Of a stretch of DNA of 40,964 bases, positions 31,019 through 36,217 are shown piece by piece. The first letter of the stretch is position 1. Each line of letters begins with the position of its first letter. The stretch is from positions 1 through 40,964 of the forward strand of contig JANWZO010000020.1 of the NCBI GenBank assembly GCA_025054615.1, written 5' to 3'. This DNA is from Kiritimatiellia bacterium. GTDB lineage: Bacteria > Verrucomicrobiota > Kiritimatiellia > CAIVKH01. The translations under genes and the position numbers were made by a program. The notes beneath the pieces were generated by a model. That model saw nothing but the letters and a program-made list of their open reading frames with translations, was not told the DNA's origin and ran no database searches.

Positions 31019-31066
31019 ATCTTGCATGAAGGTTTCATTACGGAGTTGGCTTGGTCAGGAGTTGCA

Positions 31067-31789
31067 ATGAGCAAACCTTGTTTTCTCTGTTCCTCTGTCG
31101 GGCGAAAGGTCGTTGCAGCCATTTCGGGCATCGCGTTGATGCTCTTCATCGTCGTGCACCTCGCAGGGAATCTGACCTTGCTCGTTCCCGACCAGGGGGC
31201 GACGTTCAATGCGTATGCACACAAACTCAACTCCCTGGGACCGCTGCTGTGGGTCGCTCGCGCGGGGCTGTTGATTTTCTTTCTGGGCCATGTGATTACG
31301 GCGATCGGCGTCCGCCTCGACGAGCGTCGTCTGCGGCCGATCGGATACGAGTTGCGCGCCAGTAAGGGCGGTCCGAGCAAACAAACCTGGTCGTCGAGGT
31401 CAATGCTGATCACCGGTCTGATCCTCTTGGTGTTTGTGCCGTTCCACATATGGATGTTTTCGCTTAACCAGGGTGCGCCGCACGCGAGGGTGGTTCAGGA
31501 TGGGGTTGAAATGAAAGACGTCTACCTTGCCGTCGTGAAGGGTTTCAAAGATCCTGTGAAGGCGTGGGGCTATGTGGTCGTGATGGTGCTGCTCGGATTC
31601 CACCTTCGCCATGGATTTTGGAGCTCTCTCCAGTCACTCGGCGCACTGAGTGCAAGGTGGACGCCGGCAATTTATGCGGCGGGTCTGGTGTTCGCGCTGC
31701 TCATGGCGATCGGTTTCCTGATTTTGCCCCTCTACATTCTGTATGCCGGCCCGGACCCCGCGACACTCCGATTGGCCGCTGGGGGATGA
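31067..31789 (+). CDS. sdhC: succinate dehydrogenase/fumarate reductase cytochrome b subunit (SdhC, b558 type)
   Basis: A 240-residue, five-helix dihaem cytochrome b that anchors succinate:quinone oxidoreductase in the inner membrane. Candidate haem ligands are His31 (VVHLAGNLTLL), His75 (LGHVITAIG), His127 (PFHIWMF) and His179/His182 (GFHLRHGFWSS). These match the TIGR02046-type family found in operons ordered sdhC-sdhA-sdhB. AGGAG at 31057-31061 is 5 bp before ATG 31067. Unusually, no sdhA or sdhB follows: 349 bp of non-coding DNA and an unrelated cluster come next. The partner subunits must be encoded elsewhere if the complex is functional. It is probably co-transcribed with the upstream enzyme. 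Confidence 0.9.
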   Translation: MSKPCFLCSSVGRKVVAAISGIALMLFIVVHLAGNLTLLVPDQGATFNAYAHKLNSLGPLLWVARAGLLIFFLGHVITAIGVRLDERRLRPIGYELRASKGGPSKQTWSSRSMLITGLILLVFVPFHIWMFSLNQGAPHARVVQDGVEMKDVYLAVVKGFKDPVKAWGYVVVMVLLGFHLRHGFWSSLQSLGALSARWTPAIYAAGLVFALLMAIGFLILPLYILYAGPDPATLRLAAGG

Positions 31790-32110
31790 GGGTCAAGCCG
31801 TCTTAGGCCCTTCGTCGAAATTCAGCGTTTTCTCCTGCGATCGCGGAGATCAGGGGTAGGCCGTTTCATCGGCCACGACCGAACAGAATCGGCCTGTCCT
31901 CTGGCGACTTCCTCACGGCTGCCAGGCTTGGGGAGAGGGAGCGCCTCATGTTTTAGCGGAGCGACAAGCGCGAGGCCCGGATCACATCTTGATACAATTT
32001 CGTAGCTTTATTCAAATAATATTACAAGAATGTTTTTCCGGTTCGGATTTCAGCAGAGCCCGTGTTTCATAACCTACTGAACAACAGTTTCTTGCGTTCT
32101 AATCACCGCA
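31790..32110. other. intergenic region with AT-rich upstream segment of the sigma-54 promoter
   Basis: No gene is visible; no start of sdhA is present in any frame. A near-palindrome TCTCCTGCGATCGCGGAGA with one bulged T lies at 31831-31849. Bases about 31985-32110 are markedly AT-rich against the surroundings. This is a common setting for enhancer or bending-protein sites upstream of a sigma-54 promoter, but I cannot define a specific activator site. Confidence 0.55.
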
Positions 32111-32127
32111 TGGCACGGAGATTGCTT
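32111..32127 (+). promoter_or_regulatory. sigma-54 (RpoN) promoter of the Anbu cluster
   Basis: TGGCACGGAGATTGCTT matches the -24/-12 consensus TGGCACG-N4-TTGCW at every defined position, with correct spacing. GG at 32112-32113 and GC at 32124-32125 are the invariant pairs. Transcription would start near 32136-32138, at or next to the first in-frame GTG (32139) of the ATP-grasp gene. Sigma-54 promoters need an enhancer-binding ATPase activator, so the cluster should be inducible. Confidence 0.88.
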
Positions 32128-32138
32128 GCCATTTCGGC

Positions 32139-33596
32139 GTGATTTCTCCGAATTCATTGAATGAATTCCATTACGATGAGATCGGCGCATATGACGAATT
32201 AATCGAAGGAGGCGAATTTCGTCCCCATGCCCGGGCGATTGGCGAGATGTTGCTCGCGCAGCCCTGGGAGGTTCTGGTCCGCCATCAACAATCCGCCGAG
32301 CGGATGATGCGCGATCTCGGGGCGACCTTTACCGTCTACGGGAATGCGGAAGGGACGGAGAAGATCCTGCCGTTTGACATCGTGCCGCGGCTGGTGACGG
32401 CGTCTGACTGGGACCGGATTGAGAGGGGGCTGATCCAGCGCGTCGAGGCCCTTAATCTGTTTCTGCAGGATGTATATGGCGCCCAGCGGATGATCAAAGA
32501 GGGGCGGATCCCCGCCGAAGTGGTGCGATCGGCTGCGCATTTTCGGCAGGAATGCGTGGGTCTCGAGCCTCCGCTGGGTGTCTGGTGTCACATCACCGGT
32601 ACAGATCTGGTTCGAGACGAAAAGGGCGATTTTTACGTGCTGGAAGACAATCTGCGCTGCCCGTCGGGCGTCTCCTATGTGCTGGAGAACCGCCGGGTAA
32701 TGAAACGCATTTTTCCGGAGCTATTCCAGCGGCTGGGCGTGCGGCCCGTCGAGGATTACCCCGACCGCCTCCTCGATGTGCTGCAGGCGATCGCGCCAGA
32801 GCACCGAGCCAAGCCAAGCGTTGTTGTCCTAACCCCTGGACCCTACAACTCGGCGTATTTCGAGCATTCGCTGCTCGCGCGGGCCATGGGCGTGCCGCTG
32901 GTACAGGGCGAGGACCTTATGGTGCATCAGGGCCGAGTCCTCCTGCGGACGACAAGCGGCTTGGAGCCGGTCGACGTCATCTATCGTCGAATTGACGACG
33001 ATTTTTTGGACCCTTTGGCCTTTCGGCCCGATTCGGTGCTCGGAGTGCCCGGACTGATGGAGGCCTATTGCAGCGGAGGCGTTGCGATCGCCAACGCGCC
33101 GGGGACGGGCGTCGCGGACGACAAGGTTGTCTACGCCTACGTGCCAGAGATGATCCGATTTTTTCTGGATCAGGAACCTATCCTGCCCAACGTCCCGACC
33201 TATCTGTGTTGGGTCGAATCCGACCGGAACTACGTCCTCGAGCACATCGACCGACTGGTCGTCAAAGCGGCCAACGAATCCGGCGGATACGGCATGTTGA
33301 TCGGGCCGGTGGCGACGCGAGCGGAACTGAATGACTTTCGCAACCGCATCCGGGCGGCGCCGCGGAATTACATCGCGCAGCCCGTCATCTCGCTGTCCAC
33401 CGCGCCTGTCCTTGTCAAGGATCGTTTCGAGCCCCGTCATGTTGATCTCCGTCCATTCATTCTTTATGGGCATTCGATCCGCGTGTTGCCCGGCGGTCTC
33501 ACGCGGGTGGCGCTGAAGAAAGGTTCGCTCGTCGTCAATTCCTCTCAGGGCGGGGGTAGCAAGGATACCTGGGTTTTGTCGGAGGACACATGCTGA
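32139..33596 (+). CDS. circularly permuted ATP-grasp type 2 protein (DUF404/407, COG2308)
   Basis: A 485-residue predicted peptide/amide ligase with a permuted ATP-grasp fold. Family segments include [105 protein letters not shown] and the closing [24 protein letters not shown]. Relatives are predicted to make unknown peptide-like products or tags. The start is uncertain: GTG 32139 lies at the predicted transcription start and would give a leaderless message, while TTG 32157 lies inside a 19-bp inverted repeat. It is the first gene of the sigma-54 cluster. Its stop overlaps the next start by 7 bp, so translation is coupled to the alpha-E gene. Confidence 0.9.
32150..32168. promoter_or_regulatory. 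perfect 19-bp inverted repeat at the start of the Anbu cluster transcript
   Basis: GAATTCATTGAATGAATTC has 9-bp arms around a single G. It begins about 13 bp after the predicted sigma-54 transcription start and overlaps the first codons of the ATP-grasp gene, including the alternative TTG start. It could be a repressor operator or an mRNA hairpin that limits translation. Confidence 0.7.
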
Positions 33597-34591
33597 GCCG
33601 GGTCGCACAATCTGTCTACTGGATCGGCCGCTACATCGAACGGGCTGAGAACATCGCCCGCTTTGCCGAGGTGAATCAATATCTGACGCTCGACCTGCCG
33701 CCAGGCGCCGGCGAACAATGGGAGCCGCTGATCGACATCACGGGGGACCGGGCCGAATTTTTCGACAGGTACGGCGAAGCGACGCGCGAGAATGTGCTGC
33801 GGTTTCTGACGTTCGATACGCGCTATGCCAATTCGATTGCCTCCTGCATCCGCCGCGCGCGCGAGAACGCCCGCTCCGTGCGCGACGTCATTACGCTTGA
33901 GCTGTGGGAGCAGATTCACCGGTTTCACGAGATGATCACAGCGGCGGCCGAGCGATTTTCCGGCGGCATGATCCCCTATGAGTTTTACTCGCAGGTCCGC
34001 AACGCGAGCCATCTGTTGCACGGATTGGCCGATGACACCATGTCCCACGGCGAAACCTGGCACTTCTTGCGCCTCGGCCGGATGCTCGAGCGAGCCGACA
34101 AGACCGCGCGGCTGCTGGATGTGAAATACTTCATCCTCCTGCCGTCCGTCGACGAGGTCGGCATGCCGTGGGACGACCTGCTGTGGTGCGCAGTGTTGAA
34201 ATCCGCCAGCGCGCTGGAAATGTACCGCAAGCGGTTCGGGCGCGTGCGGCCGGATCGAATCATTGAATTTCTTATTCTCGACCGGACGTTCCCGCGATCG
34301 GCGCTCTACTGCATCGACCGCGCGCAGGGCCACCTGCATGCCATCAGCGGAACGCCGGCGGGCGCGTTCCGGACTCCGCCCGAGCAGCAATTGGGCCGGC
34401 TACACGCGCGTCTGACCTATGCCCGCCCAGAAGACCTGGTGCTCGCCGGCCTTCACGAGGTGCTCGACGAGCTGCTCGCCGACCTCAACGCCATCAGCCG
34501 GGGAATCCACGACACCTATTTTTCACCTGGGCCTGCGACCATCCGCACGGAAGCCATCCTGGTCTACAACCCGCAGCAACAGCAGCAGTAG
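33590..34591 (+). CDS. alpha-E domain protein (DUF403, COG2307)
   Basis: A 333-residue, mainly helical protein. The opening [29 protein letters not shown] is the signature of the alpha-E family, with [25 protein letters not shown] and [34 protein letters not shown] downstream. Biochemical role is unknown; the family almost always accompanies the permuted ATP-grasp protein. The ATG at 33590 overlaps the previous stop by 7 bp, and the transglutaminase-like gene starts 9 bp after its end. A Gln-rich tail (PQQQQQ) closes the protein. Confidence 0.92.
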
Positions 34592-34600
34592 CGCCAGCCC

Positions 34601-35440
34601 ATGCTGTTCAACGTGCGCCACACCACGCTCTACCGGTACAGCGCGCCGGCCCTGCTGGGTCCGCATGTGTTGAGGCTGTGTCCCCAGCAGGCGCCCGGTG
34701 TCCGCGTGATTCGCTGGTCGATTGATATCCGACCCAAGCCCGTTGGCGAGACTGACTACATCGACGATGCGGGAAATTTTGTGCATGCCGCCTGGTTCGC
34801 GGGCAGTACCGAATCCCTGAGCATCGCCACCTCGATCGAGGCGCGCACGATCCCGCGCAACCCGTTTGATTTCATCGTCACGAACCCCGGCGCGCTGGTG
34901 CTGCCCGCCAAGCTGGACCACGCGCGTCTATTGGCTCCCTATCTCAAGCCGGTCCAACAAAGCGGCGCCGTTGCGCGCCTGTCGGCAAAGCTTGCCAAGC
35001 AGGCCGGGTCGCGAACGCTCGAATTCCTCCGCATCGCCGCCGAGCACCTGGCCGGATTCCACAAGACCATTCGGGAGGAGGGCCCGCCCCAACCACCATC
35101 CAAAACTCTCGCCAGCCAAACCGGCGCCTGCCGGGATCTGACCGTCCTTTTCATGGACCTTTGCCGGTGGCAGGGCCTTCCCGCCCGATTCGTCAGCGGT
35201 TACTGGCGCGGTCGCCGCCCCGTGGATCGCCACCACCTTCACGCGTGGGCGGAAGTCTATTTGCCGGGCGCTGGCTGGCGAGGGTATGATCCGACCTGTG
35301 GACTGGCCGTCAGCGACGAGCACCTGCCGCTGGCAGCGGCGCCCGCCCCCGAAGGCGCCGCTCCGGTTGAAGGAACCTACGGCGGCGGTGCTATTGAATC
35401 CACGCTGTCCTGGCAAATCCGAATCGACGTCCGGCCGTGA
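34601..35440 (+). CDS. transglutaminase-like cysteine protease/amidase (COG1305)
   Basis: A 279-residue protein with the bacterial transglutaminase-like N-terminal beta domain (MLFNVRHTTLYRYSAPALLG) and the papain-like core. The catalytic triad is Cys177 in TGACRDLTVLFMDLCR, His214 in HLHAWAEVYLPG, and Asp230 in GWRGYDPTCG. Such proteins in this cluster are thought to cut or transfer amide bonds, possibly on the product of the ATP-grasp enzyme. It has no signal peptide, so it acts in the cytosol. Gaps of 9 bp to alpha-E and 12 bp to the Anbu gene indicate one operon. Confidence 0.93.
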   Translation: MLFNVRHTTLYRYSAPALLGPHVLRLCPQQAPGVRVIRWSIDIRPKPVGETDYIDDAGNFVHAAWFAGSTESLSIATSIEARTIPRNPFDFIVTNPGALVLPAKLDHARLLAPYLKPVQQSGAVARLSAKLAKQAGSRTLEFLRIAAEHLAGFHKTIREEGPPQPPSKTLASQTGACRDLTVLFMDLCRWQGLPARFVSGYWRGRRPVDRHHLHAWAEVYLPGAGWRGYDPTCGLAVSDEHLPLAAAPAPEGAAPVEGTYGGGAIESTLSWQIRIDVRP

Positions 35441-35452
35441 AAGGAGTGCTCT

Positions 35453-36217
35453 ATGACGTTTTGCCTCGGGATGAAAGTGAAAGATGGACTTGTTGGCATT
35501 GCGGACACTCGCGTGACATCCGGCACCGAGTGCATCCGGGCCCGGAAGATCTCAACCTATTTTGGCGACCGCTATGCCTTCTTCATGATGACGTCCGGGC
35601 TCCGCTCCGTCCGCGACAAGTCCCTGACCTATTTCGAGGAGGCGCTGGATGCGCGACTCGGCGAATGCGACAGGCTCTTCAAGGCCGTGAACCTCTTCGC
35701 CGAACAGGTCCGGCGCGTCGCCAAGGAGGACCGAGAGGCGCTGATGGCCTCCGGACTCCATTTCAACATCCACACCCTTATCGGCGGGCAGATGGCCGCC
35801 GACAAGGAGCACAAGTTGTTCCTGCTTTATCCTGAGGGAAACTGGGTCGAGGTCGGGCAGGGGACGCCTTATCACATCATCGGGGCCTCCGGCTACGGAA
35901 AGCCCGTCCTTGACCGAACGCTCAAATACACCGACCCGATGCGGTTCGCCCTGAAGGTCGGCTGCCTCGCTTTCGACTCCACCCGCATCAGCGCGGCCGA
36001 CGTGGACTTCCCCATCGACGTCGTGCTTTATCCGTCCGGGTCGTTCGAAATGATCGAGCACCGTTTCGAAAAACAGGACCTCGCGGACATGTCGGCGTGG
36101 TGGCAGGAACGACTTCGGAAATCCGTTTCCGAACTGCCGGAAAACTGGATGGAGACCCTGTTGTCTCGCGCCGCGGAGATCGACCCTCGACGCCAGATCG
36201 CTGTTCATCCCACCTGA
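35453..36217 (+). CDS. proteasome-type protease Anbu (bacterial proteasome-related, COG3484)
   Basis: A 254-residue N-terminal nucleophile hydrolase of the proteasome beta/HslV superfamily. MTFCLGMKVKDGLVGIADTR shows the family start: removal of Met exposes the nucleophile Thr2, with the usual D-x-R (ADTR) pairing. The core continues with KISTYFGDRYAFFMMTSG and HTLIGGQMAADKEHKLFLLYPEGNWVEV, then GYGKPVLDRTLKYTDPMRFALKVG. Known Anbu proteins form self-compartmentalised helical or ring assemblies without a dedicated unfoldase; their substrate is uncertain. AGGAG 6 bp before the ATG supports the start. It is the last gene of the cluster of ATP-grasp, alpha-E and transglutaminase genes. Confidence 0.93.
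   Translation: MTFCLGMKVKDGLVGIADTRVTSGTECIRARKISTYFGDRYAFFMMTSGLRSVRDKSLTYFEEALDARLGECDRLFKAVNLFAEQVRRVAKEDREALMASGLHFNIHTLIGGQMAADKEHKLFLLYPEGNWVEVGQGTPYHIIGASGYGKPVLDRTLKYTDPMRFALKVGCLAFDSTRISAADVDFPIDVVLYPSGSFEMIEHRFEKQDLADMSAWWQERLRKSVSELPENWMETLLSRAAEIDPRRQIAVHPT

Follow-up and report, generated by a model that had tools for sequence, protein, structure and literature searches.

Which signal and which regulator switch on the ATP-grasp/alpha-E/transglutaminase/Anbu genes of a Kiritimatiellia bacterium is the question raised by the 40,964-nt stretch of DNA analysed here (the window). What Anbu and its ATP-grasp, alpha-E, and transglutaminase partners do is a question of long standing; the four proteins have been proposed to form a system that synthesises and cleaves peptides (proposal cited in PMC5666114). 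Nitrogen control of this cluster is already known in Proteobacteria. The genes I35_5080-83 of Burkholderia cenocepacia H111, which encode DUF404/407, DUF403, and transglutaminase proteins, depend on sigma-54 and NtrC (PMC5491218), and nitrogen limitation induces the Anbu operon PP_2685-2688 of Pseudomonas putida, an effect attributed to NtrB/NtrC (PMC7801951, PMC3325844; also the passage of PMC5666114 that cites Hervas 2008). In one study, the homologous operon was still induced 14-20-fold in a P. putida rpoN mutant (PMC7801951), which counts against the reading given below. A 2025 survey computed sigma-54 promoters before COG3484 (Anbu), as is done here, with enrichment in Proteobacteria only, and its relevant passages do not mention Kiritimatiellia (PMC12316311); a 2011 sigma-54 survey does not name these genes (PMC3162934). 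What is new, as far as the literature shows, is the reach of this control into Kiritimatiellia, together with the ACA-N4-TGT enhancer and the candidate activator, a NifA-like protein, described below.

The names that the initial annotation of the window had given to the four genes were borne out by Pfam matches and, for Anbu, by a phmmer match (Table 1). The genes are adjacent, as is characteristic of Anbu operons, and their junctions of -7, +9, and +12 nt are compatible with a single operon. A gene for an sdhC-type cytochrome b (31022-31789) directly precedes the ATP-grasp cluster; neither sdhA nor sdhB intervenes.

Table 1. Features of the operon and of its predicted control region (positions in the window)
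Feature	Position	Strand	Basis
Distal enhancer half ACAATTTCGT	31994-32003	+	ACA-N4-TGT, one mismatch; exactly 30 nt before the proximal copy
Proximal enhancer half ACAAGAATGT	32024-32033	+	ACA-N4-TGT; starts 87 nt before the -24 element
Predicted sigma-54 (-24/-12) promoter TGGCACGGAGATTGCT	32111-32126	+	0 mismatches; same placement in 27/35 class loci
Predicted +1	32137	+	C 32125 counted as -12; from standard sigma-54 geometry
ATP-grasp protein, circularly permuted	32139-33596	+	PF14403, E=9e-173
Alpha-E protein	33590-34591	+	PF04168, E=2.7e-101
Transglutaminase-like protein	34601-35440	+	PF08379 and PF01841
Anbu, proteasome-related protease	35453-36217	+	phmmer to Anbu chain 5loy_A, E=7.7e-33

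Sigma-54 promoters carry a -24 GG and a -12 GC at fixed spacing, with the start about 12 nt past the GC, and their transcription requires RpoN and ATP-dependent activation from enhancers some 80-200 nt upstream. In agreement with the initial annotation, TGGCACGGAGATTGCT shows no mismatch to TGGCACG-N4-TTGCW and its GG (32112-32113) and GC (32124-32125) are correctly spaced; the predicted +1 falls within the 32136-32138 interval where the transcript start had been expected. It is the sole match with zero or one mismatch on either strand of the window, and base composition leads to an estimate of ~0.01-0.02 perfect sites in 41 kb. The motif match by itself is not conclusive, since the genome (2.48 Mb, 95% complete) contains four perfect matches, TGGCACGGAGATTGCT included, at least two of which lie inside ORFs: ATGGCACGAATTTTGCTC coincides with the first codons of a response regulator gene (MARILL...), another falls within an opposite-strand ORF, and one, at 188285-188300 of contig C1, is intergenic and lies 135 nt ahead of a ClpB-like ORF (L007). 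The one-mismatch pattern was found 22 times genome-wide vs 16 times in a reversed control, i.e., without clear enrichment. The first of these, near an activator gene on contig C5, was considered as an activator promoter and rejected, as it is coding sequence (MARILLVDDE).

The promoter reading was therefore decided by comparison, in which conservation among relatives and the enhancer pair are conclusive and the motif alone is not. The ATP-grasp protein was found in 38 of the 346 class genomes searched, most of those compared being drafts, and 35 short-form loci, counting the window, had usable upstream DNA. These were scanned from -80 to +11 of the expected gene start with a matrix made by hand from the published consensus (threshold score ≥10). 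A sigma-54 site at the expected place, which the initial annotation had suggested looking for in relatives, was present in 27 of the 35, vs 1.1% of random 92-nt windows from the same loci; the binomial tail of ~3e-46 overstates the significance, the loci being related and the statistics here uncorrected for phylogeny. The site recurs across several families of the class, and none was found ahead of eight fused ATP-grasp paralogues from the same genomes that served as a control (L043-L050, ~37% identical). About a quarter of the class loci do not carry the promoter, namely those of family f8 and others, including the Anbu-bearing L072, L074, and L089. Among promoter-bearing class loci, a recognisable Anbu gene was present, within the stretch read, only in the window, L076, and L088. 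Judged from these gene neighbourhoods, the promoter tracks the ATP-grasp/alpha-E pair and not Anbu; its original description as the promoter of the Anbu cluster holds for the ATP-grasp/alpha-E operon and fails for Anbu, which most promoter-bearing members of the class do not have.

Beyond the class, a site was present in five loci from Verrucomicrobia or a MAG, two from Poribacteria, and one from a planctomycete among 80 named loci, and in none of the cyanobacteria among them; convincing sites were absent from the cyanobacterial, most acidobacterial, and desulfuromonad clusters. Proteobacterial plasmid copies with a site were those of K. pneumoniae, B. multivorans, and A. caldus, while those of A. 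brasilense, P. ferrooxidans, S. meliloti, and B. cenocepacia CMCC(B)23006 were not convincing and that of E. roggenkampii had only a distant site, ~400 nt upstream. The verrucomicrobial, planctomycete, and MAG promoters L135, L145, L147, and L152 have no ACA-N4-TGT pairs and share a TTGACCA-like upstream element, which is perhaps the site of another activator.

The AT-rich region claimed upstream of the promoter is present at ~31985-32040, and it holds two copies of an ACA-N4-TGT palindrome, the putative enhancer halves, at -87 and -117 relative to the -24 element. The palindrome was found upstream in 26 of 29 class loci, vs a mean of 1.3 and a maximum of 5 in shuffled sequences, and palindromes with spacings other than 4 occurred in at most four loci each. 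Class-wide, the offset between the copies peaks at 30 nt, about three helix turns, and hence both copies would lie on one face of the DNA. No enrichment was seen at spacing 10 for the classical NifA site, TGT-N10-ACA, and none of the 37 upstream regions scanned contained a GCAC-N5-GTGC box of the NtrC type. When 23 class genomes were searched for the pair without regard to genes, ~17 distinct places were found vs 3 in a reversed control, and most of these precede ammonium transporter genes (PF00909) or the ATP-grasp gene; as a rule, a sigma-54 site stands in between. A relaxed search of the window's own genome gave several matches, mostly chance-like in appearance. The pair is best read as an enhancer made of putative activator binding sites.

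Genes of nitrogen metabolism appear to share this arrangement. An enhancer together with a sigma-54 site precedes glutamine synthetase III in 16 of 20 class genomes; in the window's own genome, one AT-rich pair match, with one mismatch (contig C3:23553), is located 114 nt ahead of TGGCACAAAGCCTGCT, the sigma-54 site of such a gene. Both elements also precede amtB in L068, L077, and L090. In one relative (G002), the sigma-54 promoter is followed by the ATP-grasp, alpha-E, transglutaminase, nadE, nifA-like, amtB, and glnK genes in that order. Neither AmtB nor a canonical P-II protein was found in the 95% complete assembly of the window's genome, which keeps glutamine synthetase III and its nitrogen-type enhancer; a 26-bit P-II match was considered as GlnB/GlnK and rejected, as it reads as a divergent P-II-like protein beside an RND-type transporter. 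In L226 (G001) and L231 (G017), genes for putative outer-membrane proteins adjoin the enhancer pair and stand immediately after nifA-like or next to amtB; the protein of L231 is a Gcw_chp protein, and that of L226, with a similar start, has no Pfam match. Both are possible extra members of the regulon. In L230 (G003:C37), the pair and TGGCACATCGAATGCT precede the gene of a short protein whose DNA-binding domain is of the OmpR type (PF00486), possibly a secondary regulator.

The initial annotation had pointed out that a genome without rpoN would speak against its prediction, and had called for the activator gene to be found. A single rpoN gene is present, on contig C25 (PF04552, 204.7 bits), together with three genuine sigma-54 activators, one of which is a plausible candidate with a matching enhancer motif. 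This NifA-like protein (contig C2:20771-22321, minus strand) consists of GAF, AAA+, and Fis-type HTH domains, is encoded directly after nadE, the gene for NAD synthetase, and scores above the NCBIfam cut-off for NifA (TIGR01817; 551.6 vs 528.85 bits); its best homologue in each further class genome tested (38 genomes altogether) is 44-90% identical. Of 20 nadE-nifA-like operons, 18 have one ACA-N4-TGT copy at the start of nadE, vs at most 3 in shuffles. A site at the start of a regulator's own operon is the usual sign of autoregulation, and in principle the nadE-start site could belong to a different regulator. Because of this site, the gene order in G002, and the homologues across the class, the NifA-like protein is named as the likely activator of the ACA-N4-TGT promoters, although its connection to the motif is indirect. 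It shares domain architecture and TIGR01817 score with the NifA of nitrogen fixation but differs from it in being encoded with nadE, in having no shown action on nif genes, and in its putative site, ACA-N4-TGT instead of TGT-N10-ACA.

The other two activators provide the alternative that survives best, namely that the promoter is nitrogen-related and that one of these proteins acts on it as NtrC. Both have receiver, AAA+, and Fis-type HTH domains and are encoded beside histidine kinases (C11:43602, with an AtoS-like kinase, and C5:25949), and the homologous Burkholderia cluster is under NtrC. However, they score only 466 and 444 bits against an NtrC cut-off of 558.6, which none of the three activators passes; the C11 kinase-regulator pair has no ACA-N4-TGT ahead of it; and the motif recurs at the nadE-nifA-like operon, whose regulator gene has amtB-glnK and the cluster as neighbours in G002. 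We consider this alternative rather unlikely. The locus conforms neither to a classical NtrC regulon, for which an NtrC equivalog and a TGCACC-N5-GGTGCA box were sought, nor to a classical NifA regulon with upstream TGT-N10-ACA sites. The B. multivorans homologue, for its part, carries an NtrC-type box, TGCACC-N5-GGTGCG.

As for the stimulus, nitrogen is favoured because glutamine synthetase III and amtB are preceded by the same ACA-N4-TGT enhancer, and the cluster is very probably switched on under nitrogen scarcity. Of the two kinds of induction originally suggested, nitrogen stress fits this common enhancer, and nothing was found that points to envelope stress. That the sigma-54 operon answers envelope or some other stress instead could be argued from the open function of the ATP-grasp/alpha-E/transglutaminase set and from the perfect intergenic site ahead of the ClpB-like ORF, but is judged quite improbable against an enhancer common to amtB-glnK and glutamine synthetase III and a homologous cluster that is nitrogen-regulated in Burkholderia and Pseudomonas. 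Least probable is a chance -24/-12 match in an operon run by a housekeeping promoter: the three further perfect matches and the unenriched one-mismatch pattern would allow it, but the recurrent placement among relatives, the conserved enhancer pair, the enhancer and sigma-54 unit also ahead of glutamine synthetase III and amtB, and an upstream region in which no sigma-70-like site was found all speak against it.

Taken together, the comparisons make it likely that TGGCACGGAGATTGCT is a genuine sigma-54 promoter of the operon, with paired ACA-N4-TGT enhancers, in a nitrogen-starvation regulon whose most likely activator is the NifA-like protein. In the mechanism proposed, nitrogen limitation would be sensed by this activator, via its GAF domain or a partner, and the activator would bind both enhancer halves and loop to the sigma-54 polymerase waiting at the promoter, where ATP would drive melting and the ATP-grasp/alpha-E/transglutaminase/Anbu operon would be transcribed. 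The regulon would comprise this operon and glutamine synthetase III and, in relatives, amtB-glnK as well, while the NifA-like protein probably represses its own nadE-nifA operon through the single nadE-start site. The operon itself may serve to make or recycle peptides so as to cope with low nitrogen. As the regulon seems to work in a genome apparently without AmtB and canonical P-II, the activator may sense nitrogen status directly. The wider proposition, of a Kiritimatiellia nitrogen-starvation regulon in which paired ACA-N4-TGT sites place ammonium uptake, glutamine synthetase III, and the ATP-grasp/alpha-E/transglutaminase(/Anbu) genes under a nadE-linked, GAF-type NifA-like activator, is held with more reserve, as somewhat more probable than not.

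Compared with the window, the B. cenocepacia H111 cluster has the same core genes, a sigma-54 dependence that is predicted here, and a nitrogen response that is likely here; it differs in its activator, NtrC as opposed to a GAF-type NifA-like candidate with ACA-N4-TGT pairs, and in ending with a second large transglutaminase protein where the window has Anbu. The P. putida Anbu operon resembles that of the window in its induction by nitrogen limitation, presumed for the latter, and differs in phylum and, apparently, in activator. That the gene set belongs, far from the Proteobacteria and apparently with another activator and another enhancer, to a regulon shared with genes for glutamine synthetase and ammonium transport would make nitrogen control a lasting part of the biology of this system. 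If so, nitrogen control of one gene set would have arisen by convergence, through activators recruited independently in two phyla, and Anbu systems would then be likely to scavenge nitrogen or recycle peptides. For experimenters, the finding indicates nitrogen limitation as the growth condition to use, and it offers a defined DNA motif and a possible regulator with which to study nitrogen control in a class that has hardly been studied.

Lastly, the promoter bears on the start of translation. The ATP-grasp gene may start at GTG 32139, which would be near-leaderless, or at TTG 32157, the codon aligned with the ATG used by the closest relatives; this TTG lies 46 nt from the -24 T, against 43-47 nt in those relatives. 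Since about ten relatives have a start codon 27-29 nt from the -24 T, almost at the predicted +1 (L077-L080, L088, L090, L093, L095, L096, and L101), near-leaderless translation of the operon may be real.
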